Below, one piece after another: positions 43,672 through 60,136 of a DNA stretch of 64,000 nucleotides. Positions within the stretch are counted from its first letter, which is position 1. Each line of letters begins with the position of its first letter. The notes below the pieces were generated by a model, which had not been told where the DNA came from, ran no database searches, and worked only from the letters and a program-made list of their open reading frames with translations. Source of the DNA: Bacilli bacterium (GTDB taxonomy: Bacteria; Bacillota_I; Bacilli_A; RF39; UBA660); NCBI GenBank assembly GCA_017410525.1, contig JAFQQQ010000001.1:62001-126000 (forward strand). Direction: 5' to 3'. The translations under genes and the position numbers were made by a program.

Positions 43672-44802
43672 ATGTTTTTTAAAAATATACATACTAGAAT
43701 TAAAATAATAATATTAGTAACTGTTTTTTTATTTATAGTTATTATAGGTAAAGTATTTTATATACAAGTAATAGATTATAAAAAATTAAATAAATATGCG
43801 ACTAGTTTATGGAGTCGTAATTTACCACTTGCTGCTAATAGAGGCACAATATACGACACTAATGGAATAGAACTTGCTGGAAATATTACAACAACATCAC
43901 TAGTATTAATACCTAATCAAATAGGAGATAAAAAGAAGGTTGCTAAAGATTTAAGTGAAATATTGAATGTTACTTATGAAGAGATGTATAAACATGTATC
44001 TAAAAAAACATCTATAGAAAGAGTACACCCAGAAGGTAGAAATCTTAGTTATGAAATAGCAGATAAAATAAATAGCTTAGGTTATGATGGAGTGTATCTT
44101 GTTAAAGAAGCAAAAAGATATTATCCATATGATACAATGTTATCTCATAGTATTGGATTTGTTGGAATAGATAATCAAGGATTAAGTGGACTTGAACTTA
44201 TTTATGATGATTACTTAACAGGTAGTGATGGTTCTATAAAATATTTTAGTGATGCGAAAGGAAATAGTCTTTCTATGTCACAAATATATGAACAACCTAC
44301 AAGTGGAGTTAATATGACATTAACAATCAATTATAAATTACAAGAAGCACTAGAAAGAGAACTTGATATAGCAGTATCTGAATATAATCCAGATCAAGCT
44401 TTAGGTATTGCGATGAATCCAAATACAGGAGAAATACTTGCTATTGCATCAAGACCTACATTTAGTCCAAGTAATTATCAAAATTATACAGTAGAAGAAA
44501 TAAATAGAAATCTTCCTATATGGATGACATATGAACCAGGAAGTACATTTAAAATAATAACTCTTGCTGCTTCATTAGAAGAAAAAATAGTTGATTTAGA
44601 AAGTGATAATTTTTTTGATGGAGGAGCAGTAACTGTTGGAGGAGCTACATTACACTGTTGGAAACATGGTGGACATGGTAATCAAACTTATTTGCAAGTA
44701 GTAGAAAACTCTTGTAACCCGAGTTGCGAGCTAGAGATACCAAGACAAGCGAAGAAACCCTTGAAAATAAAGGGAAAAACAAAATTTCACCAAAGTTTAT
44801 AA
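43672..44802 (+). CDS. Class B penicillin-binding protein (SpoVD/FtsI-like), 3'-truncated at element junction
   Basis: A transpeptidase that cross-links septal or spore peptidoglycan, but here broken. Intact parts: a membrane anchor (about 12-32), the dimerisation domain with NRGTIYDTNG and YYPYDTMLSHSIGFVG, and the transpeptidase start with EPGSTFKIITLAA (S-x-x-K, about 290). HCWKHGGHG and VVENSCNP also match the family. Right after NSCNP (base about 44,720) the similarity stops, and a 27-residue unrelated tail follows to the stop. The S-x-N and K-T-G motifs and any PASTA domains are missing, so it cannot be active as written. The -10 TATAAT at 43652-43657 and GGTGATACT remain. Confidence 0.88.
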   Translation: MFFKNIHTRIKIIILVTVFLFIVIIGKVFYIQVIDYKKLNKYATSLWSRNLPLAANRGTIYDTNGIELAGNITTTSLVLIPNQIGDKKKVAKDLSEILNVTYEEMYKHVSKKTSIERVHPEGRNLSYEIADKINSLGYDGVYLVKEAKRYYPYDTMLSHSIGFVGIDNQGLSGLELIYDDYLTGSDGSIKYFSDAKGNSLSMSQIYEQPTSGVNMTLTINYKLQEALERELDIAVSEYNPDQALGIAMNPNTGEILAIASRPTFSPSNYQNYTVEEINRNLPIWMTYEPGSTFKIITLAASLEEKIVDLESDNFFDGGAVTVGGATLHCWKHGGHGNQTYLQVVENSCNPSCELEIPRQAKKPLKIKGKTKFHQSL

Positions 44803-45371
44803 AAACATTGTTAGCAAGAGAAACCTGTAATTATAGTGAAAACCTATATAATAATAAAAAGGTAGAATATACTTACGAAGTTGAGTTTGTATTGTTGAAA
44901 GACTTGAGAGGTAGTAATTCATTATGTAATGATTTAGCATATAAAGATTATTATGAGAGTGAAGTATCAAGATTCCAAAATAAGACTTATGATGAAGATA
45001 TCCATATTAGAGATTTATACCCATTAGAAATCCATACTAGTAATAAAAGAGAAATTGATATTAATAGATTTAATTTATTAAATGATTTCATATTAGGATC
45101 TAGTGATAACATAACAAGACGTGTTACAAAGAAAGAAATAGTATATAAAAAGAATAAAGCAAAAAGTATTGTAACAATTTCTATAAAGAAAGATTATATA
45201 AACTTATATACTTTATCAAATATTGAAAGATTTGATATTAATGAAAGAATGGAAGATGTGCCAGAGAAGAGTAGAAAACCAATGAATAAAAAATTAATTA
45301 TAACTAGTGAAGAAGATATGTATTATGCGCAGAGCATACTGAAAAATTATTTTGTAGAACTACAGGTGTAG
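44724..45371 (+). CDS. Hypothetical ORF at element edge, start uncertain
   Basis: I do not recognise this protein. The open frame runs through the junction and could start at a TTG at 44724 or at 44808, neither with a ribosome site; no ATG occurs until late. The body has charged, mixed alpha/beta sequence (YTYEVEFVLLKDLRGSN, TRRVTKKEIVYKKNKAKSIVTISI) without membrane segments. The first 30 residues come from sequence next to the break, which contains a short CCCTT...AAGGG inverted repeat. It could be the C-terminal part of a gene whose start lies at the far end of the element and is joined only in the circular form. Confidence 0.5.
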   Translation: MRARDTKTSEETLENKGKNKISPKFIKTLLARETCNYSENLYNNKKVEYTYEVEFVLLKDLRGSNSLCNDLAYKDYYESEVSRFQNKTYDEDIHIRDLYPLEIHTSNKREIDINRFNLLNDFILGSSDNITRRVTKKEIVYKKNKAKSIVTISIKKDYINLYTLSNIERFDINERMEDVPEKSRKPMNKKLIITSEEDMYYAQSILKNYFVELQV

Positions 45372-45381
45372 TTCTTTTTTA
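45356..45381 (+). terminator. Rho-independent terminator
   Basis: AGAACTACA (45356-45364) pairs with TGTAGTTCT (45367-45375), then T-run. Confidence 0.8.
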
Positions 45382-45395
45382 TTGGAGGTGATTAT

Positions 45396-46097
45396 ATGGC
45401 AGTATTTAAAGTTGAAAAAAGAAATAATTTTACAGTTATGAATAACTATCATTTAAGAGATAAAAACATATCTCATAAGGCAAGAGGTTTATTATCATTT
45501 ATGTTAAGTTTACCAGAAGATTGGGATTATTCATTGAGCGGACTAGTAAGTATTAGTAAAGAAAATAAAACAGCAATAAGAACTGCGTTAGAAGAATTAA
45601 AAGAAAATGGATATTTAATTATAGATAAAATATATCCAAATAAAACTAAAAGTGGAAGAATAGAATATGTTTATAATATATATGAATTACCACAAATAAA
45701 ACAAGATACTGAAAATCTATATCTTGAAAATCTAGATATAGAAAAGGACACACAAATAAATACTAATAAACTAAACGATAAAGAAGATAAAACTAAATCT
45801 TCTTTTTTTGATGCCGAAGAACATAATAGATTAACATTAGAATTAATTGAAAAAAACTATATAGATAAGAATGATATTCAGTTGTATTTTTATGACGAAC
45901 TTTTTGAAGAATTATTAAAAGAAAATAGTTATATAGATTTAATATGTATTATTCATTATATTTTAAATAGAGTAAAATTAAATAGATTTAAAGATGAAGA
46001 TGGTAATATTATAAGTAATAAATTTGGATATATGAAACAATCAATAATTCATAATATAAAAAGATTAAATTTTGATATTAATGATTTGTGGAATTAA
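45396..46097 (+). CDS. HTH_36 replication-initiator-like protein of integrative elements
   Basis: The N-terminal 100 residues hold a winged helix-turn-helix of the HTH_36 type: NYHLRDKNISHKARGLLSFM, LPEDWDYSLSGLVSISKENK, then TALEELKENGYLI. The SLPEDWDY stretch is very typical of RepA-like/DnaD-like initiators encoded by Bacillota ICEs and plasmids. The remaining 130 residues (EEHNRLTLELIEKNYI, KFGYMKQSIIHNIKRLNFD) are helical, like the conserved C-terminal domain of such proteins. TTGGAGGTGATTAT is a strong ribosome site. It probably acts in replication of the excised circle. Confidence 0.8.
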   Translation: MAVFKVEKRNNFTVMNNYHLRDKNISHKARGLLSFMLSLPEDWDYSLSGLVSISKENKTAIRTALEELKENGYLIIDKIYPNKTKSGRIEYVYNIYELPQIKQDTENLYLENLDIEKDTQINTNKLNDKEDKTKSSFFDAEEHNRLTLELIEKNYIDKNDIQLYFYDELFEELLKENSYIDLICIIHYILNRVKLNRFKDEDGNIISNKFGYMKQSIIHNIKRLNFDINDLWN

Positions 46098-46099
46098 AA

Positions 46100-46121
46100 A
46101 AGATTAGTCATTGCTAACCTT
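46100..46121 (-). terminator. Terminator of repressor 1
   Basis: On the minus strand AAGGTTAG pairs with CTAATCTT (one G-T pair), followed by T residues. Confidence 0.6.
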
Positions 46122-46547
46122 ATTTCTTAATATATCATCTGCTGATAATTTGTGATTCTTACAAAATATATATAAACTTCTTGTAGTAATCAAATTTTTA
46201 CCTAATTCATAATAAGTAAGAGTAGTTCTTGATATAGAGCATTCATCTGCTATATCTTTTTGTGTTAAGTGTAACTCTTTTCTGATTTTGCGTAGTTTTG
46301 CACCTAATTCTTTTTTATTTAAAACTATTTTTGTGTCATATAAAGTATTTCTTTTTGTTAAACCTAGTGCATAATCTACTGAATAATTATATAAATTACA
46401 AAATCTTATTAATTTAGGTAAAGGTATACTATCGTAAGCATTTTCCCAATTAGCGATTGTTTTGTCTGATACTCCAAATACAAATCCTAACTCTTTTTGT
46501 GTCATTTCTAATTCTTCACGACAAAATTTTAAATTATTATCAAACAT
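46104..46547 (-). CDS. Transcriptional repressor with two XRE domains (repressor 1)
   Basis: A 147-residue protein made of two consecutive Cro/CI-type helix-turn-helix domains. The first is at about 4-58 (REELEMTQKELGFVFGVSDKTIANWENA) and the second at about 75-130 (RKIRKELHLTQKDIADECSISRTTLTYYELGK). Having two domains in one chain lets it bind direct repeats. I choose the ATG at 46547, with AGGTGAG six bases upstream; a GTG at 46595 and ATG at 46577 are alternatives. It is divergent from the cargo operon and, by analogy with phage repressors, probably controls both itself and that operon. It is a paralog of the gene at 58045. Confidence 0.85.
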   Translation of the reverse strand: MFDNNLKFCREELEMTQKELGFVFGVSDKTIANWENAYDSIPLPKLIRFCNLYNYSVDYALGLTKRNTLYDTKIVLNKKELGAKLRKIRKELHLTQKDIADECSISRTTLTYYELGKNLITTRSLYIFCKNHKLSADDILRNKVSND

Positions 46548-46588
46548 TTTACGCTCACCTAATGTTAATTTTCCCATTAAAACGTAAA

Positions 46589-46632
46589 ATATCACCGAAA
46601 CTATGGGCTATATCACCTTTTTGTGTTATAAT
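46589..46632 (+). promoter_or_regulatory. Control region 1: operator repeats and extended -10 promoter
   Basis: ATATCACC occurs twice as a direct repeat (46589-46596 and 46610-46617), 21 bp apart (two helical turns). It lies just upstream of TGT-TATAAT (-10 at 46627-46632) and overlaps the expected -35 position. A tandem-HTH repressor bound here would block the cargo promoter. Confidence 0.6.
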
Positions 46633-46656
46633 GAATAATAGAGAGGAGTAACAAAT

Positions 46657-46710
46657 ATGAAAGATAAAATATATATAGAAAAAATAAATATTAAGGAGAA
46701 AAGAGAATGA
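46657..46710 (+). CDS. 17-residue leader peptide coupled to the first cargo gene
   Basis: GAGAGGAGTAACAA precedes an ATG that opens a 17-codon, Lys/Ile/Glu-rich frame (starts MKDKIYIEK). Its TGA overlaps the ATG of the next gene (ATGA). AAGGAG for the next gene lies inside it. The same promoter and ribosome site stand before the 92-residue gene at 58595, so this may be a remnant of a longer gene or a true coupling peptide. Confidence 0.45.
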   Translation: MKDKIYIEKINIKEKRE

Positions 46711-47171
46711 GTACTGAATTAATAGCAAAAGCAATTACTGCAATAGCATTTGGTATTGTAGGTGCGATAGTCATTACTCCAATCTTTATCTTTTTAAGGA
46801 AATTATTTTACGGACCTTTTATAAATAAAAAGTTAGTAGAAAAAGCGAAAGCAAAAGGTAATATAGTTACAGCGAGATTAATAAAACATTATGACCAATA
46901 TGATCATAGTGGGCAATTTAGTAGAACAACTGGAAAAGAAATTGGTGTATATGAGTATGAAGTTAATGGTCGCAAGTATAAATTTAGATCAATAAGTATT
47001 AACAGATTACCACGAGAGATTACACTTTATTATTTAAATAACCCTAGGAAGGCATCATTTGCAAAAGAAATTTATGTAACTGAACGCTCTCCGTGGTTTA
47101 AATCTTTTATGGCAATATGTTTTATATGCTGGTTAATAGCTTTTATATGTTTGATTAATATGAATATTTAG
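46707..47171 (+). CDS. DUF3592-like membrane protein
   Basis: Membrane segments lie at about 10-32 and 132-150, with the main domain between them. That domain has VEKAKAKGNIVTARLI, then VYEYEVNGRKYKFRS and ITLYYLNNPRKASF. This series (gene-specific strand, YEYEVNGKKY, IxLYYxxNPxK) is the DUF3592 pattern and recurs in the genes at 51679, 53543, 55207 and 55681. AAGGAGAAAAGAG precedes the ATG, which overlaps a 17-codon leader peptide. 154 residues; function unknown. Confidence 0.75.
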   Translation: MSTELIAKAITAIAFGIVGAIVITPIFIFLRKLFYGPFINKKLVEKAKAKGNIVTARLIKHYDQYDHSGQFSRTTGKEIGVYEYEVNGRKYKFRSISINRLPREITLYYLNNPRKASFAKEIYVTERSPWFKSFMAICFICWLIAFICLINMNI

Positions 47172-47180
47172 TTTTAATTT

Positions 47181-47345
47181 GAAGGAGTGATAATATGGAT
47201 CAAAATAATAATTTTAATACACAGGGGTATAATGGTTTTACAAATAATCAACCGAATACAAATATGAACAACAACTTTTATCAACCACCAGTAAATAATC
47301 AAGCACCAAAGAAGAAACCTAATATAGGTTTAATTGCTGGTATTA
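47181..47345 (+). repeat. Conserved 5' module, copy 1
   Basis: About 165 nt covering the ribosome site (GAAGGAGTGATAAT), the MDQNNNFNTQGYN tail code and the start of the membrane helix. It is near-identical to four other copies in this element. Confidence 0.85.
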
Positions 47346-48130
47346 TTGTGGGAATTATTGCAGTAGGAATTGGAGCATTTTTAATGTTTAATAAAAATAC
47401 TGATAATAATTCTAATGGCGGAACAAATAATTCTAATAGTGGAACAAATAATGTTAATTTATCAATTGATGAGAGTATTTCTAAATACCTAACTTGTAAT
47501 TTAGTTGGTAATGCAATTTATGGTGATAAAGCAAGTTATTCTTATGAGTATATTTTACCTAATTGGAATAGATATACTTTCTTAAAAGACTATGAACCAG
47601 AGTATATGAATGAACCAGGTAAATTATATAATGTTAAATATGATAAAGAATGTAAGGCAGATAGAAAAGTTGATTCAACAACTGCACAAACAAATGATTT
47701 TGGTATTTATATTCATTATAGTGTTGATAAATATGCGTCTACTGCTTGGGCAAATATAAAAGAACGTACTACAGGTAATTTATTATATACTCAGACAGCA
47801 GGAAGTCCGACTTTATATGGAAACGATAATGGATATTGGTATGCTTATATGAAAAAAGACACTCAAACATCAACTGGTGAAGAATTAAATGAACTTCATA
47901 TAGAGATTAGAAAAGAAGTTGCTAAAATTGAAGATGCAGTGAAAACACCACTTGGTGATACAGTTGTTGGTGATGAATTTCACGCTTTAGAAATATCAAT
48001 TGTAATTTCATATCAAAATGAAACAGGTAAGACTAAATTAAATTATTTATTAAATGATTTAAAAGGAATGTTAGAGGAAAAATATAATTTAGATTTATCT
48101 AAATTAACAGTTGATATGATAAAAAAATAG
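47195..48130 (+). CDS. MDQNNN-family single-pass surface protein 1
   Basis: A 311-residue protein of a five-member local family. The N-terminal cytoplasmic tail of about 45 residues is rich in Asn, Gln and Pro (MDQNNNFNTQGYNGF...QPPVNNQAPKKKP). Then come one membrane helix (GLIAGIIVGIIAVGIGAFLMF, about 47-67), an Asn/Ser/Gly-rich linker and an outside domain of about 215 residues. That domain has two Cys (YLTCNLVG and DKECKAD), probably a disulfide, and resembles no other copy here. The Lys-rich stretch before the helix fits an N-in orientation. Function unknown. Confidence 0.8.
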   Translation: MDQNNNFNTQGYNGFTNNQPNTNMNNNFYQPPVNNQAPKKKPNIGLIAGIIVGIIAVGIGAFLMFNKNTDNNSNGGTNNSNSGTNNVNLSIDESISKYLTCNLVGNAIYGDKASYSYEYILPNWNRYTFLKDYEPEYMNEPGKLYNVKYDKECKADRKVDSTTAQTNDFGIYIHYSVDKYASTAWANIKERTTGNLLYTQTAGSPTLYGNDNGYWYAYMKKDTQTSTGEELNELHIEIRKEVAKIEDAVKTPLGDTVVGDEFHALEISIVISYQNETGKTKLNYLLNDLKGMLEEKYNLDLSKLTVDMIKK

Positions 48131-48142
48131 AGAGGTGTAAGT

Positions 48143-48293
48143 ATGGATCAAAATAACAATTTTAATACACAGGGGTATAACAATTTTACAAATAATCAAT
48201 CAAATACAAATATGAACAATAATTTTAATCAACCACCAGTAAATAATCAAGCACCAAGGAAGAAACCTAATATAGGTTTAATTGCTGGTATTG
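48143..48293 (+). repeat. Conserved 5' module, copy 2
   Basis: The same ~150-nt coding module, with its own small substitutions (AGGAAGAAA in place of AAGAAGAAA before the helix). Confidence 0.85.
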
Positions 48294-49291
48294 TAGGTGC
48301 AGTTTTAGTTGTAGGAATAGGTGGAATATTATTATTTAATAAGCCATCAAACGAGCCAAATAATAATATGCAAAATAATGGTGGAACAAATAATTCTTCT
48401 AATGTTGTATACAATGATAGTTCAAGAAGTATTAATTCTACTTATACATTTGATGAGGCAACAAGTAAATTTGCATTTAAAGAATATGAAACAACTTTGA
48501 TTTTTCAACAAAATAATAATATAAAACTTTCTAGTATAAAGTTAGGTAATATAAGTAATGTTTCTTTTTACTATGAAAATGCTTCTGCTTATTATACTTT
48601 CAATTTTGAAGAAAGTGGCTCTTCAAGTATTAATGAATTTGTAGAAAATTTTAATAATGGTATTTTAGGTGGTGGAAAAAGACAAACGACTTTCCAAAAT
48701 ATCAAAATGTTAGAATCAAATGAAGAGTATGCTTTTATTTCTTGTCAAGAATCAGGAAATTCATCTTATAAATATTATTTTGCAAAACAAATAGGTGGTA
48801 AGGTTTTCTATGCTTATAGTGATCGTCATTTAAATGAATTAGATGACAATAAAAAAACTGAAATGTTAATAGGGTTTAAAGAACTATTTAATGCTTTATC
48901 TACTGATGATAATAAAGAGCCTTATATAAGTGATAAAATTATAAATGTACCTGTTGTTTTAAACAAACAAATAAAGGATTATAAGTTTATAGATACTATT
49001 CAATTAGTTCATCCTAAAACATCAACTGCTAACTATCGCAATTATATGAAAGGGTCTGTTAATTTATATAGTGCAGATAATAAGAGTCTTGTAGTTCAAT
49101 ATGATGCAGACAAATTTTATAATAAAGTTGAGTGGAATAAAAATTTAAGTTCAAAAATCAAATATAGTGATGAAGATAATTTCTTTGGAATAAAAGATGG
49201 AAATAATACTCAAATGTTTAGTATAAGTAAGTCTGAAAATATTGAAACTGAAAACAACTTTAATGAATATTTAAATAAGTTCTTTAATTAA
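48143..49291 (+). CDS. MDQNNN-family single-pass surface protein 2
   Basis: The family's N/Q/P-rich tail and membrane helix (GLIAGIVGAVLVVGIGGILLF) are followed by an outside domain of about 300 residues. That domain is clearly related to the one at 54033: VVYNDSSRSINSTYTFDEA then SKFAFK, YYFAKQIGGKVFYAY, EPYISDKIINVPVVLNK and FFGIKDGN. The membrane segment, however, is closer to copies 1 and 5 than to copy 4. The ribosome site is AGAGGTGTAAGT, 13 nt after the previous stop. 382 residues; function unknown. Confidence 0.8.
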   Translation: MDQNNNFNTQGYNNFTNNQSNTNMNNNFNQPPVNNQAPRKKPNIGLIAGIVGAVLVVGIGGILLFNKPSNEPNNNMQNNGGTNNSSNVVYNDSSRSINSTYTFDEATSKFAFKEYETTLIFQQNNNIKLSSIKLGNISNVSFYYENASAYYTFNFEESGSSSINEFVENFNNGILGGGKRQTTFQNIKMLESNEEYAFISCQESGNSSYKYYFAKQIGGKVFYAYSDRHLNELDDNKKTEMLIGFKELFNALSTDDNKEPYISDKIINVPVVLNKQIKDYKFIDTIQLVHPKTSTANYRNYMKGSVNLYSADNKSLVVQYDADKFYNKVEWNKNLSSKIKYSDEDNFFGIKDGNNTQMFSISKSENIETENNFNEYLNKFFN

Positions 49292-49309
49292 AAAAGAGAG
49301 GTAGAGATT

Positions 49310-50071
49310 ATGAAAAATAAAATATTATTTAGTTTATTATGTGCTGGTCTTGTTTTAGGACTTGCGACAGGTTGTGGAAATAAAACTAATAATGAAAATA
49401 ATAATAACAATAATATACAAAACAATGGTGGAACAAATCATAATAATCAAGAAAATAAATTAAAATTTACAGAAGAGTATACATATTTTGGTTTTACATT
49501 CTATTATCCTAATGAATTAGCTACGGCACAAAATAATCATACGGGATATTTATTAAATGATTATGTTAGCAATTTTTATGGTGGTGCTTATATAAGCAAA
49601 CAAAAATATGAAGGTAATGCAGGAACTACTTATTATATGACTGCAATATCTAGTCCATTTGCTCAAATGACTAATGCAGAAGTTAAGAATGAAAATATAA
49701 CATTAGATAATATTGTTGAAAAGAGCAAAGAAAAATTAATAAAATCATTTGGTTATTATAGTACTCTTATGGGTGATCCAAAGGGTAATCAAGTTTATAG
49801 TGGCGATTTAAATCAGGTTATTTCTAAACAAGAAAAGATAACTATAAATGGAATAGATATGGTTAAAGTAGAAGGGTACTTTGAGGACACTAATAGGAAT
49901 TTAATAGGGCAAGAAAAGTTTGTTGCTTATTATATGATTGCTAATATCAAAGATACAGATGGTAGTATTGTTAACTTACCAGTATATTATTTAGGATTTG
50001 GGGTTGATTCTGATTATAGTGAAGTAAAATCTTATATGGAAGAATCAATAAAATATATTAAAAAAAATTAG
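49310..50071 (+). CDS. Lipoprotein, unknown function (family A)
   Basis: A signal peptide and lipobox (SLLCAGLVLGLATGC, Cys about residue 22) are followed by an Asn-rich linker. A 200-residue outside domain begins YFGFTFYYPNELA and contains ITINGIDMVKVEGYFEDT and KFVAYYMIANIK...LPVYYLGFG. The same blocks occur in the lipoprotein at 50776, so the two are paralogs. Its signal peptide is almost the same as that of the lipoprotein at 62233. RBS AGAGAGGTAGAGATT. Function unknown. Confidence 0.8.
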   Translation: MKNKILFSLLCAGLVLGLATGCGNKTNNENNNNNNIQNNGGTNHNNQENKLKFTEEYTYFGFTFYYPNELATAQNNHTGYLLNDYVSNFYGGAYISKQKYEGNAGTTYYMTAISSPFAQMTNAEVKNENITLDNIVEKSKEKLIKSFGYYSTLMGDPKGNQVYSGDLNQVISKQEKITINGIDMVKVEGYFEDTNRNLIGQEKFVAYYMIANIKDTDGSIVNLPVYYLGFGVDSDYSEVKSYMEESIKYIKKN

Positions 50072-50080
50072 GGTGATATG

Positions 50081-50752
50081 ATGAAAAAAATATTATTAAG
50101 TTTGTTATGTGGAGTAATGATTTTAGGAGTTGCAGTAGGTTGTAGTAATTCAAATAAAAATAGTGATGATAATCAAGGCAACAATCAATCTAGTGGATGG
50201 AATGATTATACATTTTATATAAATGACTATAAAATAGAATTACCAATGAAGTTTAGTGAGTTTAATAAATTAATTACTCAAAATAGTGATTATGAATTAG
50301 GAAAATCAGAAAAATTTTATAATGGATCTGGAATTGATGATGATAAATTAATTTCAGGTGAAAGAGAAGAATTTTACTATTTAAATCAATATGGTGATAC
50401 AATTTTTGAACAATATTATTTATATTTCACTTTACAAAATGAAACAGATGCAACTTTACCTAACGAAGATTGTACAGTTGTTGGAGTAAGAGTTGGTAAT
50501 TTAACTGATCCAATTACGTATTTTGATAAAAATATTAAATTTACTTCTAAAAAATTATATACAGGTATAGAAATGACAGAAGATAAATTAGTAAAAACAT
50601 TTGGTAAGTATGATGATTTTAGTGCTTCCACATATAGGTATGATAAATTTGAATATGGAATGAGTACAAATTATTCATTTCAAATTTCTACTAAAAATGA
50701 TGTGATTTCTCAATTAGAAATAAGTTGGATCGACAAAACAAGAGATGAATAG
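50081..50752 (+). CDS. Lipoprotein, unknown function (family B)
   Basis: Signal peptide with lipobox MILGVAVGC (Cys about 21), a short polar linker and a domain of about 190 residues. That domain has DYTFYINDYKIELPMKFSEFNKL and KLVKTFGKYDDFSASTYRYDKFEYG, similar in layout to the C-terminal domain of the protein at 52751 (an extracellular gene product tracking a target value of strength or charge cannot be inferred). I choose the second ATG (50081), 5 nt after GGGTGAT; the first (50078) is too close. Function unknown. Confidence 0.75.
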   Translation: MKKILLSLLCGVMILGVAVGCSNSNKNSDDNQGNNQSSGWNDYTFYINDYKIELPMKFSEFNKLITQNSDYELGKSEKFYNGSGIDDDKLISGEREEFYYLNQYGDTIFEQYYLYFTLQNETDATLPNEDCTVVGVRVGNLTDPITYFDKNIKFTSKKLYTGIEMTEDKLVKTFGKYDDFSASTYRYDKFEYGMSTNYSFQISTKNDVISQLEISWIDKTRDE

Positions 50753-50775
50753 TAATCAGAGTGAGGTGAAAAGTA

Positions 50776-51399
50776 ATGAAAAAAATATTATTAAGTATAT
50801 TATGTGCAATAATGATTGTAGGTCTTGCTGGATGTGGTAATTCTAATAATACTGATTTAACTGAAAATAATGATAATTTAAATAATTCAGAAAATCAAAA
50901 TAGTAAAACTGATTTTTCTAATAAATTAACATTTATGGGTTACGATATTAGCTATCCAAGTGATGCAGGAAAAAATTCATCAGATTATGGTAATTTGCTT
51001 GGAACAAGTGAATATATCGTAATTGTTGAAGCACCATCAACTGCTGGGATATTAAAAGAAGTGTCTAATATAAATGACGCTCCAAAAGTAGTAGAAGAAT
51101 ATGTGCTTTCAACATTAGAACATAAAGTTCGTTCGCTTTTTAATTTTGATAGTACAGAGCAAATAACTGAAAAAACAACTAAAACAACTAAAAATGGAAT
51201 AGAAATGCTTCGTGCAGAAGGTGTATTTAAAAATACTAGAGATAATACAGAAGTTGAATTTGTGGCTTATTATTTATTAGCAGGAGATAATGGTAATATG
51301 CCAGTATATCTTGTTGGTATACCAATGAAGGATTCTACAATTTCTATTAAAAACATAATGGATGAAATGTCATCACATATTACGAAGTATAAAGGTTAG
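50776..51399 (+). CDS. Lipoprotein, unknown function (family A)
   Basis: Signal peptide with lipobox IVGLAGC (Cys about 20), an Asn/Asp/Ser linker, and a domain of about 160 residues paralogous to that at 49310. Shared blocks are LTFMGYDISYPSDA, KNGIEMLRAEGVFKNT, EFVAYYLLAGD and PVYLVGIP. It is shorter than its paralog by about 45 residues, mainly in the middle. RBS GTGAGGTGAAAAGTA. Gene order A-B-A suggests local duplication. Confidence 0.78.
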   Translation: MKKILLSILCAIMIVGLAGCGNSNNTDLTENNDNLNNSENQNSKTDFSNKLTFMGYDISYPSDAGKNSSDYGNLLGTSEYIVIVEAPSTAGILKEVSNINDAPKVVEEYVLSTLEHKVRSLFNFDSTEQITEKTTKTTKNGIEMLRAEGVFKNTRDNTEVEFVAYYLLAGDNGNMPVYLVGIPMKDSTISIKNIMDEMSSHITKYKG

Positions 51400-51409
51400 G
51401 AGTGATAAT

Positions 51410-51682
51410 ATGAAGTCATTTAGATATGAATTTACTATGGAAGAATTAAAGTACTATCTTTTTAATAAAAAGAAATGTCCTAAATGTCAAAATAAGATGA
51501 TAAAATCAAAAGGATATGAACTTGTAGATGGGTCAATTTTTAATTCTGCTTCTACACCTCTATATATTCAAGGTAGAGATAAAGTTAAACATTATCATTA
51601 CTTATTTAATTGTTCTAAATGTGGATTTCAATATACATTAAAAGAATTAGTACAAAAAAATAAAGGAAGTGATAAAAGATGA
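51410..51682 (+). CDS. Small zinc-ribbon protein
   Basis: A soluble protein of 90 residues with CPKCQNKM (about 24-31) and CSKCGFQY (about 73-80), four Cys that fit one zinc ribbon with a long inserted loop. I start at the ATG at 51410 (TAGGAGTGATAAT before it), not at 51362, which lies inside the upstream gene. Its TGA overlaps the ATG of the DUF3592-like gene (ATGA), so the two are made together. Function unknown. Confidence 0.7.
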   Translation: MKSFRYEFTMEELKYYLFNKKKCPKCQNKMIKSKGYELVDGSIFNSASTPLYIQGRDKVKHYHYLFNCSKCGFQYTLKELVQKNKGSDKR

Positions 51683-52110
51683 ATTTTCCTATTTTAATAT
51701 TTATCGGAATAATACTTTTAATAATGGGAGTTGTGTTTATTGGTGTATCTATCACAATAAAAAAACATTATGAAAAATTATATAATAATTGCACAGAATC
51801 TACCATTGGTAAATTTGATAAAGTATCTGAAAGATTAGGGTTAAATGATACAAATGATATGAGAAGCTACTATCCTATTTTTAAATATAATGTTAAAGGA
51901 AAAGATTATTATTGTAAAGGGAATAAAGGTGCTTATCATATAAAAGATGTAGATATAAAAGACATAACAATTTATTATAATCCTAATAATCCTAATGAAT
52001 CGTATACAAACAAAAAAACAAATAATACAATAATAAATGTTTTTAAATTGTTAGGAATTATATTTGTAGTAATTGGATTATGTTTAATAGTTTTAAAATT
52101 AATAGTTTAA
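51679..52110 (+). CDS. DUF3592 family membrane protein
   Basis: Two membrane segments (about 4-26 and 116-138) flank a domain with YYPIFKYNVKGKDYYCKGNKG and DITIYYNPNNPNESY. This is the best match to classical DUF3592 in the window: the Y-x-P-x-F-x-Y-x-V-x-G-x-x-Y block and the YYNPxNP block are both present. 143 residues. It is coupled to the zinc-ribbon gene by ATGA. Function unknown. Confidence 0.82.
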   Translation: MNFPILIFIGIILLIMGVVFIGVSITIKKHYEKLYNNCTESTIGKFDKVSERLGLNDTNDMRSYYPIFKYNVKGKDYYCKGNKGAYHIKDVDIKDITIYYNPNNPNESYTNKKTNNTIINVFKLLGIIFVVIGLCLIVLKLIV

Positions 52111-52130
52111 ATAGAAAGAAAGGAAAAATT

Positions 52131-52724
52131 ATGAAGAAAAAAATATTATTAAGTATATTTTGTTGCCTATCTATTCTGTTGGTGGTAACTGGTTGTGGCA
52201 CACAAAAACCAAAATTAATTGATGAAAAATCGGTTTTAAATTATTTAAAAGATACTTACCCTAATGAAACTTTTGAAATAATTAGTAATGAAGAAATTGA
52301 TATTACTCATAGTAATTGTGGAGATGATACATTTGTGGGTAATTCTTGGTTAGTAAAATCAAATAATACAGGCATAGAATTTAATGTAGAAGATTCTTAT
52401 AACTTTAATTCTATCTATTGTGAATTTGGAATAAAGAATGATTATGTTTCGACTGCATTAGAAGAAAAATCTAAATTAAACACTTTTAACAAATTACATA
52501 TTTCTTATAATTCAATTGAAGTATATGAAAAAGAATTTTATAGTAGAGCTGAAATGGTAGATGCGCTATATAATGCGATTAGTGAGTTAAAAAATGAAGC
52601 TCCATTTAAATATGGTACTAATATAAATGTTTATATTAATTTGAAAGATGAAGAAAACTATAAATTCCTTTATTTTGATAAAATTTCAAGTAAAGAATAT
52701 ATTACTAATATTTTAGATAATTAA
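52131..52724 (+). CDS. Lipoprotein, unknown function
   Basis: Signal peptide with lipobox LLVVTGC (Cys about 21), then a domain of about 175 residues with a SNCGDDTFVGNSWLVKSNNTGIEF block and two further Cys. It does not clearly match the family A or B lipoproteins. I start at the ATG at 52131 with AAAGGAAAAATT upstream; an earlier in-frame start at 52080 lies inside the DUF3592 gene. 197 residues. Function unknown. Confidence 0.75.
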   Translation: MKKKILLSIFCCLSILLVVTGCGTQKPKLIDEKSVLNYLKDTYPNETFEIISNEEIDITHSNCGDDTFVGNSWLVKSNNTGIEFNVEDSYNFNSIYCEFGIKNDYVSTALEEKSKLNTFNKLHISYNSIEVYEKEFYSRAEMVDALYNAISELKNEAPFKYGTNINVYINLKDEENYKFLYFDKISSKEYITNILDN

Positions 52725-52738
52725 TAAAAAACAAAAAA

Positions 52739-52900
52739 AGGAGTGATAATATGGATCAAAACAATAATTTTAATATGCAGGGGTATAATGGTTTTACAAA
52801 TAATCAACCGAATACAAATATGAATAACAATTTTAATCAACCACCAGTAAATAATCAATCACCAAAGAAGAAATTTAATATGGGTTTAATTGTTGGTATT
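52739..52900 (+). repeat. Conserved 5' module, copy 3
   Basis: The ribosome site AAGGAGTGATAAT and ~150 coding bases, near-identical to the other copies; it has AATATGCAG where the others have AATACACAG or AATACACAA. Confidence 0.85.
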
Positions 52901-53533
52901 GGTGTTGTTGCAATAGTTGCTGTTGTGGGCATTGTTTTTGGTAGTAAATTATTTTTAAATAGTGGTAATAATAGTACAGATAATAGTAATGATAATATAA
53001 ATAATAATGTACAAAATAATGATATCAGTAACGATTCTACTATAAATTATGATGAATTAATGAAAATGCAAATTATTATTAATGGTAATGAGATATTTTT
53101 GAATAAAACTACTATTGATGATTTTCTAGAAAGTAGCAAATGGGAAAATTATGAAGAATCATCATTTTCAACAGAAGTAAACAAAGCAATTGTTTTAAAA
53201 GATGGTGTTAATGAAATAACATTGACTTATTTAAAATCAAATAATGTAATTTTCCAAGTTACAACCAACTCAGATTTTGATAATAATGTAACAAAAATAC
53301 AATATAAGGATTCATACATAGGTACTTTGAATATAGGAGATAATATATTAGAAGAACAATTAAAGGAAAAGTACATAATAAATAAAACAAATTATCGTTT
53401 TGATATAAGAAGAACTAATCCATCAGACCTTATTATTTTATATGAAAAATCTTCGCCAATTGTATTGAATTATTTGTATCATGATGAAGAATATAATTTA
53501 ACAGGTTTTTCTGCTTGGTGGTATATTTATTAG
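52751..53533 (+). CDS. MDQNNN-family single-pass surface protein 3
   Basis: The shortest family member (260 residues). The N/Q/P-rich tail is followed by a helix (GLIVGIGVVAIVAVVGIVFG, about 47-66) almost the same as in copy 4, an Asn/Asp-rich linker and an outside domain of about 170 residues (MQIIINGNEIFLNKTTIDDFL, YKDSYIGTLNIGDNILEEQL). That domain has the look of the lipoprotein at 50081, with a threshold-like I-x-I-x-G-x-x-x-x-L pattern, but similarity is weak. Function unknown. Confidence 0.78.
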   Translation: MDQNNNFNMQGYNGFTNNQPNTNMNNNFNQPPVNNQSPKKKFNMGLIVGIGVVAIVAVVGIVFGSKLFLNSGNNSTDNSNDNINNNVQNNDISNDSTINYDELMKMQIIINGNEIFLNKTTIDDFLESSKWENYEESSFSTEVNKAIVLKDGVNEITLTYLKSNNVIFQVTTNSDFDNNVTKIQYKDSYIGTLNIGDNILEEQLKEKYIINKTNYRFDIRRTNPSDLIILYEKSSPIVLNYLYHDEEYNLTGFSAWWYIY

Positions 53534-53542
53534 AGGTATAAG

Positions 53543-54019
53543 ATGGAAAATGAAATAACATTAAAAGAAGCTTGGGAACAAATACTAGATTATGATCCAT
53601 CTTTATGGTTTGGGTTGATAGGTGCTATTGTTGTTTTTGTAATTGAAATTATTTTGGTAAAGAAAAAAATAATATTTAATGGTTTTGAAAAGAAAGTAAA
53701 AGAAGCACAGAAAGATGGTAGAGTTTTAAATGCAACAAGAATTAGTTGTAGATATGAAAATAGAAATCCAGGAACTAAAACTATCAATAGGATATATATA
53801 GCACATTACCAATATGAATTGAATGGAAAAACAGAAAAATATCAAGTGGTTTCTACTAGTATGGAGCCACCTCGTACTATATCTTTATATTATGAAAAAA
53901 ATTCTAATAAAGTATTTAGTAAATATGGAAAGAAGAGTAATCCATTAATAGTGTTAATATATATAATACCTATATTGGTAGCATATTTTATTATGAAAAT
54001 ATTGGGATTTCATTTTTAA
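53543..54019 (+). CDS. DUF3592-like membrane protein (MENEITLK start)
   Basis: Membrane segments at about 22-42 and 133-152. The domain between them has KEAQKDGRVLNATRIS, AHYQYELNGKTEKYQV and PPRTISLYYEKNSNKVFS. Its first 13 residues (MENEITLKEAWEQ) and its ribosome-site region nearly match the gene at 55681, a second case of a shared 5' end with a different body. 158 residues. It follows the MDQNNN gene by 9 nt. Function unknown. Confidence 0.72.
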   Translation: MENEITLKEAWEQILDYDPSLWFGLIGAIVVFVIEIILVKKKIIFNGFEKKVKEAQKDGRVLNATRISCRYENRNPGTKTINRIYIAHYQYELNGKTEKYQVVSTSMEPPRTISLYYEKNSNKVFSKYGKKSNPLIVLIYIIPILVAYFIMKILGFHF

Positions 54020-54020
54020 A

Positions 54021-54183
54021 AGGAGTGATAATATGGATCAAAATAATAATTTTAATACACAAGGGTATAACAATTTTACAAATAATCAATCAAATACAAA
54101 TATGAACAATAATTTTTATCAACCACCAATAAATAATCAACCACCAAAGAAGAAACCTAATATAGGCTTAATTGCTGGAATTG
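54021..54183 (+). repeat. Conserved 5' module, copy 4
   Basis: The ribosome site AAGGAGTGATAAT and ~150 coding bases, near-identical to the other copies, continuing into a helix code shared with copy 3. Confidence 0.85.
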
Positions 54184-55196
54184 TTGTTGTTGCAATAGTT
54201 GCTATTGTAGGCGTTGTTTTTGGTGGCAAACTTTTATCAGATAACGATACAAATAATTCTACTGGTGGATCTTCTAATAATGAAAAAGTAGATGTTGTAT
54301 ATTATGATAACTCTAGAGAATTAAAAGATAGTTATACATTTAAAGAAGCGGTAAGTAAGTTTGCATTTAAAGTAAATGAAAGCACACTTATATTTGAAGA
54401 AAATGATAAAACAACTTTAGAACATATTATGCAAGAAGAAACAAAACACAATGATTTATGGAATGCTCAATTTGAATATAAACAAGATATTTATACTTCA
54501 GTAGGACAAATATATGTAGGTGAAAGTAGTGCAACAACATTAGAAGAATTTGTAAATAATTTTAAAGTTGGTAAATTAAGTGAAAATACTACTTGGGAAG
54601 TAGAAAATGTAAATATAGTTGAGGCAAATAATGACTATGTTTTTGCATCTTGGACTAATAAAGGTTTAGTAACAAATTATGAATACTATTTTGCTAAAAA
54701 AATTGGAAGTAAAATTTATTATGCTTATAATAGTTCAGTTGTTTCTTATAATGATACAAAGTTTGCTTTATTGCTACCACAATTTAAAGAGTTTTTTACT
54801 TGTTTAAAAGAGGATGATGGCAAGGAACCATACATATACGACAAAATAATGAATGTGCCTATTGTTTTAAATAAGAGAATAAAAAATATTGATTATATCT
54901 ATGGAATAATAAATAGTGATACAGGTTATATAGATGGCTCAGTTAGTTTGAATAAAGAAGATACTACTGACTTTATTACTATAGAATATGGTGCAGATGG
55001 TTATTATAATAAAATTGATTGGGCAAAAAAATTAGATTCTAATATTCAATATATGAGAGAAGATAGTGAGAACTTTTATGGAATAAAAGATAATGGAGTT
55101 GTTCAAATAATTCAAATTCAAAATTATAATGATGATGAAGTTAAAAATCTTGACGAACTTAATGGTTTTATGAAAGCGTATTTAACAAATAAATAA
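54033..55196 (+). CDS. MDQNNN-family single-pass surface protein 4
   Basis: N/Q/P-rich tail, helix (GLIAGIVVVAIVAIVGVVFGG), short Asn/Ser/Gly linker, then an outside domain of about 300 residues homologous to that of copy 2: VVYYDNSRELKDSYTFKEA, YYFAKKIGSKIYYAY, EPYIYDKIMNVPIVLNK, IEYGADGYYNKIDWAKKL. The helix and linker resemble copy 3 instead, so the gene is mosaic. 387 residues. It is followed by two DUF3592-like genes. Function unknown. Confidence 0.8.
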   Translation: MDQNNNFNTQGYNNFTNNQSNTNMNNNFYQPPINNQPPKKKPNIGLIAGIVVVAIVAIVGVVFGGKLLSDNDTNNSTGGSSNNEKVDVVYYDNSRELKDSYTFKEAVSKFAFKVNESTLIFEENDKTTLEHIMQEETKHNDLWNAQFEYKQDIYTSVGQIYVGESSATTLEEFVNNFKVGKLSENTTWEVENVNIVEANNDYVFASWTNKGLVTNYEYYFAKKIGSKIYYAYNSSVVSYNDTKFALLLPQFKEFFTCLKEDDGKEPYIYDKIMNVPIVLNKRIKNIDYIYGIINSDTGYIDGSVSLNKEDTTDFITIEYGADGYYNKIDWAKKLDSNIQYMREDSENFYGIKDNGVVQIIQIQNYNDDEVKNLDELNGFMKAYLTNK

Positions 55197-55206
55197 GGAT
55201 AGTATT

Positions 55207-55665
55207 ATGGATAGTTTTAAACAATTTCAAGAATTAATTTCAAATATAAATATTGATCCAGTAATAGCAATAGGTGTAATAGTAATTATTGCAACATTTA
55301 TAATAGAGTTTGTTTTAGTCAGTAAAGGATATTTGAATTTTGGGAACAGTAAAAAGAAACTAGATAAAGCAGTAAAATTAAATCATCAAATAAAAGCTAA
55401 AAGAATTTCTTATTATGATGATGATGTAACTGGTACTCAAGTTGATTCATGGTATCATGCTAAATATGAGTATACATTAAATAATAAGAAAAAAATATAT
55501 AGATATTTAAGTAGAAAGCAACCACCATTAATATTGAATTTATATTATGTTAATAATCCACGTAAGGTATTTCATTATGAAGATAAAAAATCATCTATAT
55601 TAGATTTATTAATATATATTATTCCTTTTGCTTTGGGAATACTTATTATTAATTTATTAAAGTAA
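55207..55665 (+). CDS. DUF3592-like membrane protein
   Basis: Membrane segments at about 18-40 and 131-151. The domain has KLDKAVKLNHQIKAKRISYYDDD, AKYEYTLNNKKKIYRYL and PPLILNLYYVNNPRKVFHYED, closest to the gene at 53543. It starts differently (MDSFKQFQELI) and lacks the MENEITLK piece. AAGGATAGTATT precedes the ATG, 10 nt after the previous stop. 152 residues; function unknown. Confidence 0.72.
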   Translation: MDSFKQFQELISNINIDPVIAIGVIVIIATFIIEFVLVSKGYLNFGNSKKKLDKAVKLNHQIKAKRISYYDDDVTGTQVDSWYHAKYEYTLNNKKKIYRYLSRKQPPLILNLYYVNNPRKVFHYEDKKSSILDLLIYIIPFALGILIINLLK

Positions 55666-55680
55666 AATAAGAGGTGTAAA

Positions 55681-56181
55681 ATGGAAAATGAAATAACATT
55701 GAAAGATGCTTGGACACAATTATTTGGAGATAATCCAATAAGTTGGTTAAAATGGATATGTGTGTTTGTCGTGTTAGGATTATCCTTTTATATTCTTGTT
55801 TATAAATTGTTTGGAAAACTGGAATATAAAACAGATATAAAAAGAAAAGTAGAGAAAGCGAAAGCAAAAGGTAATGTGTTAAAAGGCATCTTAGTTAAAA
55901 CTAAAATTAGACATCAAAGAAATAGCACAAAAAGAACATTTAGAGGTGTGTATGAGTATGAAATTAATGGAAAGAAATATCATTATTCAACTTTCTTTCC
56001 TGATGAAATACAGCCACCACGTGTTTTAAATTTATATTATCTTAATTCTCCCAATAAGATATTTTGTGAAGAAGAGTATGAATGGAAACCTTTTATTGGA
56101 GTTATATATATAATTAGTATTTTATTATCGTTTGTAATAGCAGGATTTGTTGCAAAATGGTTAGGTTTAATTAATGTTTAG
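55681..56181 (+). CDS. DUF3592-like membrane protein (MENEITLK start)
   Basis: Membrane segments at about 20-42 and 138-160. It starts MENEITLKDAW, like the gene at 53543. The domain has VEKAKAKGNVLKGILV, which matches the gene at 46707 even at DNA level (a stretch of about 20 identical bases), then VYEYEINGKKYHYS and PPRVLNLYYLNSPNKIF. It thus combines parts seen in two different paralogs. 166 residues; it ends 13 nt before the next ATG. Function unknown. Confidence 0.73.
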   Translation: MENEITLKDAWTQLFGDNPISWLKWICVFVVLGLSFYILVYKLFGKLEYKTDIKRKVEKAKAKGNVLKGILVKTKIRHQRNSTKRTFRGVYEYEINGKKYHYSTFFPDEIQPPRVLNLYYLNSPNKIFCEEEYEWKPFIGVIYIISILLSFVIAGFVAKWLGLINV

Positions 56182-56182
56182 A

Positions 56183-56345
56183 AGGAGTGATAGAATGGAT
56201 CAAAATAACAATTTTAATACACAGGGGTATAACACATTTACGAATAATCAATCAAATACAAATATGAACAACAACTTTTATCAACCACCAGTAAATAATC
56301 AAGCACCAAAGAAGAAACCTAATATAGGTTTAATTGCTGGTATTG
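56183..56345 (+). repeat. Conserved 5' module, copy 5
   Basis: The ribosome site GAAGGAGTGATAG and ~150 coding bases, near-identical to the others; the downstream 20 bases match copy 2. Confidence 0.85.
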
Positions 56346-57730
56346 TAGGTGCAGTAGCAGTTATTGCCACAATAGGTATAACTTTTGCTTTAAAAGGAAA
56401 TAGTGGTAGTTTATTTGGAAATAAAGGCACAGTTAAATTATATTCTGATAGTTTAACTTTAGCAGATGGTGATACACATAAATATAATTTATATAAAGAA
56501 AATGGTAATGAAGTTAATATGAAAATATATAAAATGACTGATTACCTAGTTGCATATCAAAATGTAGATAAAGATTATAATTATTTTGGGTTTGCTTTTT
56601 ATAATTTAGATAATGAAAAAAATTATGTGCTAGAAACAACTAATTTAGGACATAATGTTGAAAATTCAGGTTATATAAATACAGATATAGAGAAAAAGGG
56701 AACTGATTTTACTAATATACACGATATAGCTACTAAATTTGGAAATAGCAATGGTGCAAATGAATATTCCAAAGAAAATGCAAAAGTTGAAAAAATAAGT
56801 AATACTATTTCTAAAGTAACATCAGTAAAAACTTGGGGAGAAGAAAAATATACATATTTTATAGATATAGATGATTCACATTATTTTGAAATACAAGTTA
56901 CTTGTAATCCTGGTACTGGTTGTGATTTAGAGTCTGAAACTACAAAGGGAACTTTAAAAATATTTGAAAATCTTAAAATAGAACTAGTAGATGATAATGA
57001 TAAAGAGAATGTTGGACAAACCAATAATAAAAATTCAATAGATGAAAGATTCGAATATTATTTTGCCTTTAAAGATATTGATCTTAAAAAATTTGATAAG
57101 TCTAAAGCATTAAAAAGTATAAATGATTTTAATGGTAATGAGATAACTACATATCCTATTACCTATGAAAAATTAAGTTCAAAGTTAAAACCTTATTATG
57201 AAAAAAAGGGAAAATATTTTGATGAATGGTTAGAAACATCCGTTGTTAGTAGTTCAGAAATACGTTGGTGTACTAATAGTAGTGATTGCTATTTGACAAC
57301 AAATTTTTATGATAGTAATAATTCTTCAATTTCTGAAGCGATGAAAAGTCATAAATTTTATATAGAAATAAGTGGATATGGTTATAATACAATATTAGGT
57401 ATTTCAGAAGATGATACTAAAGATGATATTGATTTAATACTAGAAACTATAGGAAATCCAAACGAAATTTATATACATTCAGAAGTCTATACAAAACAAG
57501 AAAATGCTGATTATTATTTAGTATATAATTATAATGATTATATGTTGGCTTTCAATTTTACTGAAAGTTCGTCTGCTGATAGATCTAAAGATTCGGCTTT
57601 ATATATAGCACCTCATTTAGAGAATATTTATTATATTGATGGTAATTCATTTAAAGATGCAATAAATGCTATTAAAAGTGGTACATACACCGATTATTAT
57701 GATAAAAATATTGATATAGTTTTAAAATAG
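56195..57730 (+). CDS. MDQNNN-family single-pass surface protein 5 (two-domain)
   Basis: The longest family member, 511 residues. N/Q/P-rich tail, helix (GLIAGIVGAVAVIATIGITFAL), then two outside domains. The first (about 75-265) has KLYSDSLTLADGDTHKYNLY and two Cys (VTCNPGTGCDLES). The second (about 285-505) has YAFKDIDLKKFDKSKALKSIND, a CTNSSDC pair and GYNTILGISEDDTKDDIDLILETIG. I choose the ATG at 56195 over the in-frame start at 56174 because the ribosome site lies between them. Function unknown. Confidence 0.78.
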   Translation: MDQNNNFNTQGYNTFTNNQSNTNMNNNFYQPPVNNQAPKKKPNIGLIAGIVGAVAVIATIGITFALKGNSGSLFGNKGTVKLYSDSLTLADGDTHKYNLYKENGNEVNMKIYKMTDYLVAYQNVDKDYNYFGFAFYNLDNEKNYVLETTNLGHNVENSGYINTDIEKKGTDFTNIHDIATKFGNSNGANEYSKENAKVEKISNTISKVTSVKTWGEEKYTYFIDIDDSHYFEIQVTCNPGTGCDLESETTKGTLKIFENLKIELVDDNDKENVGQTNNKNSIDERFEYYFAFKDIDLKKFDKSKALKSINDFNGNEITTYPITYEKLSSKLKPYYEKKGKYFDEWLETSVVSSSEIRWCTNSSDCYLTTNFYDSNNSSISEAMKSHKFYIEISGYGYNTILGISEDDTKDDIDLILETIGNPNEIYIHSEVYTKQENADYYLVYNYNDYMLAFNFTESSSADRSKDSALYIAPHLENIYYIDGNSFKDAINAIKSGTYTDYYDKNIDIVLK

Positions 57731-57761
57731 TTTATGATTTAAATAGTAGGAGGAATTATAT

Positions 57762-58043
57762 ATGGCAAAGAAAACAAAAAATGTTCTAAATAAAAAAGTA
57801 GATTTAAACAAGAAAATTGATTTAAATAAAAAAATAGATTTGAATAAAGAAGTAGAATCACACGGCACGATTTATGGTTTAATGATAGGTGCTGTTGTAG
57901 GAATGGTTTTATCATTAATATTTGAAGTTGATATGGGGTTTGCTTATGGTATAGCACCTGGATTATTAATAGGAATAATAATTGATTGTTGTAATGCTGA
58001 AAGCAAGAAAAACAAAAAGAAAAAAGTATCAAAGAAAAAATAA
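57762..58043 (+). CDS. Lys-rich small membrane protein with KKIDLN repeats
   Basis: A 93-residue protein. Residues 11-28 are three copies of the hexapeptide K-K-[VI]-D-L-N, encoded by nearly identical 18-nt repeats (57792-57845). Two membrane segments follow (about 37-55 and 59-78) and a very basic tail. GTAGGAGGAATTATAT precedes the ATG. It is the last gene of the first cargo operon and ends at a bidirectional terminator. The repeat length could vary by slippage. Function unknown. Confidence 0.72.
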   Translation: MAKKTKNVLNKKVDLNKKIDLNKKIDLNKEVESHGTIYGLMIGAVVGMVLSLIFEVDMGFAYGIAPGLLIGIIIDCCNAESKKNKKKKVSKKK

Positions 58044-58063
58044 CCTATTTGGTTATTTTTTTT
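58035..58063. terminator. Bidirectional terminator between operon 1 and repressor 2
   Basis: AAAAAATAACC (58035-58045) pairs with GGTTATTTTTT (58051-58061) between convergent genes. Confidence 0.8.
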
Positions 58064-58488
58064 CGCCCTAATACTTTATCTATAGAAAAGTTTTTGTATA
58101 TTAAGGATAGACTATATAGAAAGTTTGTAGGTATCAAGTTTCTTGCATTTTCATAATGTGCGTATGCAGATGAACTAGTATTGAGAACTTGTGCTATGTC
58201 TTCTTGTGTTTTATTGTTTTGTTTTCTAATTGTTCTTAAATTTCTACCAATTAATTCTAGATCAATTTCTAATGGCTCATACAACTCATTAAAATCTTTT
58301 AAACCAAATAAGTAATCCAAACTATAATTATACTTATTTGCATATTTAATCAATTGTTTTAAAGGGATAGTATCTTTACCTGTTTCATACCCAGAAATTG
58401 TTGAATAAGAAACCTCAAATAAGGGTATTAAATCCTTTTGTTTTAAATATAATGACTCTCTTGTATCTCTTAATCTTTTTACAATCAT
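58045..58488 (-). CDS. Transcriptional repressor with two XRE domains (repressor 2)
   Basis: 147 residues with two tandem Cro/CI-type domains: RDTRESLYLKQKDLIPLFEVSYSTISGYETGKD (about 5-40) and RTIRKQNNKTQEDIAQVLNTSSSAYAHYENARN (about 82-115). It is a paralog of repressor 1, with the same length, layout and ribosome site (GGTGAG, 5-6 nt from ATG), but the recognition helices differ (SYSTISGYE versus SDKTIANWE). It diverges from the second cargo operon, whose operator repeats also differ, which suggests matched specificities. Confidence 0.86.
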   Translation of the reverse strand: MIVKRLRDTRESLYLKQKDLIPLFEVSYSTISGYETGKDTIPLKQLIKYANKYNYSLDYLFGLKDFNELYEPLEIDLELIGRNLRTIRKQNNKTQEDIAQVLNTSSSAYAHYENARNLIPTNFLYSLSLIYKNFSIDKVLGRKKITK

Positions 58489-58519
58489 TTACTCTCACCA
58501 TATTAATTTTTCCATTAAT

Positions 58520-58570
58520 TTGGGGAAATATGTATTTTCTTGGGGAAATAGACCAAAAATGTGTTATAAT
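58520..58570 (+). promoter_or_regulatory. Control region 2: operator repeats and extended -10 promoter
   Basis: TTGGGGAAATA occurs twice as a direct repeat (58520-58530 and 58540-58550), 20 bp apart, upstream of TGT-TATAAT (-10 at 58565-58570). From TGTGTTATAATG to the gene start the sequence is almost the same as in control region 1, but the operator repeats are different. Confidence 0.65.
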
Positions 58571-58594
58571 GAATAATAGAGAGGAGTAATAAAT

Positions 58595-58873
58595 ATGAAA
58601 GAAACAAATGGAATAGTTATTGATTTAAAAGTAAAAGGGATAGATTCGCCAACTATTGCAATAGTTGAATATGAAGTAGAAGGTAAAAAATATACTATTC
58701 AAGAATCTTTAAAACTTGAAAGTAAGGCAATTAAAATAGGTTTCTTACCTATAGGTCAAAAGAAAGTTCCAAAAATAAAATGTGAAAAGGGTGGAAAAGT
58801 TGTAGTTGTTTACGATAGTAAAAAACCACAAAAAGCCTATTTAAAAGGTAATGAAGGTAAAGTAAATTGTTAA
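58595..58873 (+). CDS. Small soluble DUF3592-like protein
   Basis: A 92-residue protein without membrane segments. It has AIVEYEVEGKKYTIQE and GGKVVVVYDSKKPQKAYLKG, a soluble version of the YEYEVNGKKY and LYYxxNPxK blocks seen in the membrane paralogs. It is the first gene of the second cargo operon, directly under control region 2 (GAGAGGAGTAATAA). Function unknown. Confidence 0.7.
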   Translation: MKETNGIVIDLKVKGIDSPTIAIVEYEVEGKKYTIQESLKLESKAIKIGFLPIGQKKVPKIKCEKGGKVVVVYDSKKPQKAYLKGNEGKVNC

Positions 58874-58885
58874 GGAGGTGGCAAA

Positions 58886-59344: not shown

Positions 59345-59359
59345 TAAAGGAAGATTTAT

Positions 59360-59818: not shown

Positions 59819-59835
59819 AAAAAGAGGTAGAGATT

Positions 59836-60111: not shown

Positions 60112-60136
60112 TATTATGGAAAGGAAGTTTTAAATT

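Follow-up and report, generated by a model that had tools for sequence, protein, structure and literature searches.

By profile score, the PBP gene interrupted in the 64,000-nucleotide stretch of DNA analysed here (the window) is spoVD, which encodes a sporulation class B PBP and not a vegetative wall synthase, and the anatomy of its junctions indicates that an element was integrated into it by a large serine recombinase (LSR). The insertion is precise and apparently reversible. The best reading, and in our judgement a probable one, is a sporulation-gene intervening element of the skin or gin type, whose excision would rebuild spoVD.

In the window, the spoVD reading frame runs on into the element as far as a stop at 44802. 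A profile search of this ORF (43672–44802) detected a PBP_dimer domain and, of the 299 positions of the transpeptidase domain, only 4–105, and homology to intact relatives (∼635 aa) ends at residue 349–351 (N349/P350). The break lies at 44,716–44,720, within the SxN codons, with the junction inside the Asn codon. The earlier note on this DNA had described a PBP that matches its family up to VVENSCNP and changes at about 44,720, and this was confirmed by alignment to the intact relatives and to the closest relative, G009. It had also placed SxxK to the left of the break and counted both SxN and KTG as lost; SxxK is indeed on the left and KTG (residue 493 of the joined protein) is absent from the left part, but the SCN of VVENSCNP is itself the SxN motif, which thus stays on the left. 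A functional fusion protein encoded by ORF 43672–44802 was considered and rejected, because the element-coded tail is not kept in other carriers of an insertion at this site.

For identification of the interrupted gene, the intact orthologue (PBP_dimer, transpeptidase and one PASTA domain) was scored against NCBIfam TIGR02214 (SpoVD), giving 713.1 bits against a cut-off of 688; positions 396–635 of this profile are covered by the 3′ fragment of the interrupted gene. Within the class but outside the family, a spoVD-like PBP was present in all eight relatives with Spo0A and in none of the 15 without it (Fisher, 2e-6). Both the equivalog score and this link to Spo0A contradict the earlier description of the target as a wall synthase. 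Starting from the broken transpeptidase gene, the note had further read the element as a switch that toggles a wall PBP in growing cells, or as making the host rely on another PBP. Such a role is very improbable for a SpoVD whose presence tracks Spo0A, and reliance on a substitute is unnecessary, because the same genome separately encodes a 795-aa FtsI-like PBP, an MrdA-like PBP and two class A PBPs.

The genome from which the window is taken (G000) consists of 10 contigs totalling 1.04 Mb, is 95% complete and carries the window gene on contig C10. A profile search of this genome located a transpeptidase fragment (profile positions 103–298) on contig C7, where the spoVD 3′ half (C7:40277–41140, residues 348–635) shows 96% identity to the intact G009 gene. 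The uninterrupted spoVD locus of G009 aligns with C10 up to window position 44,720 and then with C7, with a 5-bp overlap, so that 44,720 is not a join between organisms. When the halves were joined at AACCC, one uninterrupted, in-frame SpoVD of 635 aa resulted, 612 residues of which are identical to the G009 protein. The far ends of the two contigs (C10 145191 and C7 55781) overlap exactly over 118 bp, a sequence found at no other place in G000, and the element therefore closes at 53,002 bp. The note had proposed an insertion of more than 19 kb in the PBP gene; the insertion stands, and its actual size takes it beyond the window. Both the missing 3′ half and a recombinase, for which the note had suggested a search, were found in the same genome on C7, and the two outcomes that it had named as fatal, no 3′ half anywhere or a join of different organisms at 44,720, are contradicted by that half and by the collinear G009 locus. 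An assembly artefact or chimera at 44,720 might be suspected in a ten-contig assembly; against the collinear flanks with their 5-bp overlap, the 118-bp overlap of the contig ends, the conserved att arms and the same class of junction in many independent assemblies, its probability is negligible.

The features of the gene and of the element are collected in Table 1. A 597-aa LSR with Resolvase, Recombinase and Zn ribbon domains adjoins attR and the spoVD 3′ half on C7. Matches within the element also include a VirD4 coupling protein (T4SS-DNA_transf), a VirB4-like ATPase closest to the Mbov_0397 (mycoplasma-type) ICE family with a score under the cut-off of that family, and a relaxase with a weak MobL/MobP2-type match (Relaxase/MobL just under its cut-off). 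With an integrase, relaxase, coupling protein and T4SS ATPase, the element is by gene content an ICE, for which self-transfer by conjugation is predicted. Further genes encode a sortase, an adhesin-like protein and a very large SNF2-type helicase protein. Between 47195 and 57730 of the window lie five or more element ORFs (47195, 48143, 52751, 54033 and 56174) whose products begin alike, with MDQNNNFNTQGYN..FTNNQ..NTNMNNNF and a membrane anchor, and diverge beyond this N-terminus; they form a series of paralogous cargo proteins, secreted or membrane-bound. The predicted attP spans about 50 bp, with inverted arms around the AACCC core.

Table 1. Features of the interrupted spoVD gene and of the inserted element (window coordinates unless a contig is named)
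Feature	Position	Strand	Remarks
5′ part of spoVD, PBP_dimer domain	43672..44720	+	Profile match and alignment to intact relatives
SxxK of spoVD, S291–K294	~44542-44553	+	Left of break
SxN of spoVD, S347–N349	44710-44718	+	Left of break
attL core AACCC	44716..44720	+	Common to attR at C7:41137-41133 (minus strand); crossover in the SxN Asn codon
Left part of the 53,002-bp element	44721..64000	.	Goes on past the window to C10 145191
Rest of the element	C7 55781 down to 41138	-	Follows the 118-bp overlap
Element-side arm of attL	44721..44747	+	Inverted repeat of the partner arm next to attR (GTATCTCT...AGAGATAC)
Element ORF, 215 aa	44724..45371	+	DUF5655-like
Element ORF, 233 aa	45396..46097	+	HTH_36 (replication-initiator-like)
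Element HTH_3 regulator	46104..46595	-	
Second element HTH_3 regulator	58045..58488	-	

By anatomy, the insertion belongs with the sporulation-gene intervening elements: a sporulation gene is split, a recombinase lies near the junction, a short direct repeat is present and the frame is restored on joining. Intervening elements in sigK, spsM, spoVFB, spoVR, gerE and yabG have been shown or proposed to be excised during sporulation (PMC6957869, PMC5595907, PMC4191935, PMC10747680), and the analogy with excision from sporulation genes drawn in the earlier note is apt. The skin element in sigK of Bacillus subtilis and Clostridioides difficile is an LSR element whose excision rebuilds the gene (PMC6957869, PMC5025042), and Skr, a small ORF adjoining the LSR SpoIVCA, is the recombination directionality factor (RDF) of B. 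subtilis skin (PMC6957869). Like skin, the spoVD element carries an LSR with a small ORF near it and splits a sporulation gene at a short direct repeat; skin is a defective prophage, whereas the spoVD element is a complete-looking ICE, for which excision is predicted. The gin element in gerE of Bacillus cereus ATCC10987 (28.6 kb, three serine recombinases) likewise interrupts a sporulation gene; it is a non-phage LSR element whose junctions have a short repeat in common (PMC5595907), but the spoVD element is larger (53 kb), has a conjugation gene set and a single LSR was found in it. SP-beta prophage in spsM, vfbin in spoVFB, an element in spoVR and yin in yabG also interrupt sporulation genes, their targets being other than spoVD (PMC4191935, PMC6957869, PMC10747680). 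ICEBs1 has been obtained within B. subtilis spoVD, a secondary site, after deletion of its native attB, the site being imperfect and excision undetectable (PMC3715440); this too is an ICE in spoVD, but a laboratory insertion. In the literature searched, there was no report of spoVD as a natural target, of several distinct sites in one gene or of more than one element per gene. The kind of element is thus already known, and a spoVD target, three sites and multiple splitting appear to be without precedent in that literature.

Judging from the junctions, the element was integrated through recombination of attP with attB at the SxN Asn codon of spoVD, catalysed by its own LSR. During sporulation, the LSR, with a small upstream ORF serving as the RDF, would excise the element from the mother-cell chromosome and so rebuild spoVD for spore peptidoglycan synthesis, and the spore's own chromosome would retain the element; conjugative excision in vegetative cells would provide a second, ordinary exit. 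A small ORF of 42–126 aa with a weak SHOCT-like match, often overlapping by 4 bp, lies directly upstream of the LSR in 22 of 22 cases, and by this Skr-like position is a candidate RDF. A scan for sigma-E promoters upstream of the 22 LSRs returned three with no more than two mismatches against 0.7 expected, and the window element was negative.

The state of spoVD was then compiled for a family sample of 145 genomes, about one per genus. Interruption was scored where element sequence was present at the junction, and breaks at contig ends without element sequence were counted as fragmentation. The gene was full-length in 81 genomes, interrupted in 32 and broken by contig ends only in 9, with none or only distant paralogues in the remaining 23; 32 of the 113 classifiable genomes (28%) therefore have an interrupted spoVD. 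Insertions fall at three sites: site A directly after SxxK (residue 294–297 of SpoVD), site B in SxN (residue 349; the site of the window element) and site C at SVTPIQ (residue 415). Two interruptions per gene were seen at B + C in G087 and G118 and at A + C in G104, G105 and G003, and all three sites are occupied in G061 and G093, leaving the gene in four pieces. In G087, a single contig holds residues 1–352, an element with its LSR, residues 349–415, a second element with its LSR and residues 412–633. Spore formation probably needs removal of the elements, because they cut spoVD, sometimes into four pieces.

In a tree of the LSRs, three clades were recovered, one each for sites A, B and C (supports of 100/100, 100/99 and 100/100, respectively). 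Element ends at each site are kept within subfamilies, forming inverted arms, and the attL arm of the window element is found again in further site-B elements whose LSRs fall into its subclade. We asked whether all three sites occupy the most conserved spoVD DNA; this holds for A (90th percentile of conservation within the gene) and B (87th) and fails for C (42nd). Four IMG/VR contigs matching the predicted site-B attP all carried one and the same segment of an ordinary gene of phage structural type, had no LSR and were set aside as chance matches, and the site-C attP pattern gave no match in IMG/VR. A marked excess of contig ends was seen at the att junctions (within 200 bp in 23 of 83), which is consistent with coexisting integrated and empty forms in the samples; strain mixtures, or an element common to several species, may also explain this. 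At one locus (L092:4447-11905), the right end of a site-B element, spoVD residues 347–417 and the left end of a site-C element lie on one contig and are followed, 3.6 kb further on, by a full intact spoVD and then mraY, so that a broken and an intact copy stand next to each other. At another (L172, G171:C43:6300-7242), a 3′ fragment begins at residue 406 after unrelated sequence, perhaps marking a fourth site near FGQG.

These surveys also bear on whether the window element is simply an ordinary ICE that excises at low frequency for conjugation, with spoVD as a dispensable landing site restored by chance and most carriers unable to finish sporulation. Its full conjugation gene set, the sigma-E scan without a clear promoter and negative for the window element, and the expectation that spoVD is not necessary for growth would all fit. 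However, spoVD elements range from the 53-kb window ICE down to 3.5 kb with few cargo genes, and the small site-A and site-C elements (3.5–8 kb) at the same gene had no conjugation genes in their ORF lists. In addition, Spo0A and SpoIVA are retained in interrupted genomes, and the spoVD halves are free of stops in dozens of carriers. We therefore consider this account unlikely.

A static disruption, in which sporulation has been or is being lost and the split spoVD is turning into a pseudogene, is less likely still. G000 retains Spo0A, SpoIIGA, SpoIVA and SpoIVB, but SpoVAC/SpoVAEB were not found in it, and its lineage may on this ground be losing sporulation; nearly all family members have SpoVA, most relatives in two copies, and its absence in G000 may reflect an assembly gap or a lineage loss. 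Other interrupted genomes do have SpoVA. SpoIIIAE is missing from almost the whole class, Spo0A carriers included, and is for that reason uninformative as a sporulation marker. Polarised amino-acid changes in SpoVD numbered 12 on the G000 branch and 8 on the G009 branch, a non-significant excess, and the intact copy next to the broken one at L092 would also suit a disruption. Against this, dN/dS between the interrupted G000 and intact G009 genes was 0.067, within the 0.05–0.25 seen for intact pairs, although a recent insertion may give the same value, which would then say little. With dN/dS like that of intact pairs and both halves free of stops and frameshifts, spoVD is not visibly decaying, and the excisable intervening element remains the reading that we prefer.

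The pattern of splitting reaches several sporulation genes, since spoIVA and carboxypeptidase genes also adjoin LSR elements. In G002, a 3.1-kb element carrying a different LSR, 26% identical, interrupts spoIVA behind ...RMVKTPW (L226, G002:C25:8000-13500), and the gene is cut at the same codons in G017 (L227 and L228) and G015 (L229). At six loci (L230, L231, L234, L235, L236 and L237), LSRs related to that of the window lie next to the 3′ portions of dacB/dacF-like genes for D-Ala-D-Ala carboxypeptidases, cut close to SxN or SxxK; the 5′ halves of these genes were not found. At L235, the carboxypeptidase 3′ part is followed downstream by genes for a SpoIIAA-like STAS protein, a sigma factor and SpoVA, in what looks like a spoIIA-sigF-spoVA cluster.

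The mechanism, LSR integration, is an ordinary one; the setting is unusually rich, with a sporulation gene that offers three landing sites to elements throughout a gut family. Earlier known intervening elements are scattered cases in Bacillus and Clostridium, and here a single gene is hit in roughly 28% of the genomes that could be classified in an uncultured gut family, in at least two of them at all three sites. The family also supplies three groups of serine recombinases with predicted att sites. For prediction of sporulation from MAGs, caution is needed, as spoVD may be recorded there as absent or broken. On a broader reading, for which we would claim not quite even chances, spoVD, and probably spoIVA and the D-Ala-D-Ala carboxypeptidase genes too, would be genes in pieces, with three LSR lineages specialised one per site, up to three elements per gene and all of them cut from the mother-cell genome for the spore wall, as a guild exploiting the disposable mother cell. 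The three-site system opens two ideas to testing, namely that elements evolve to target genes whose use is confined to the doomed mother cell, and that sporulation may rely on the coordination of several excisions.
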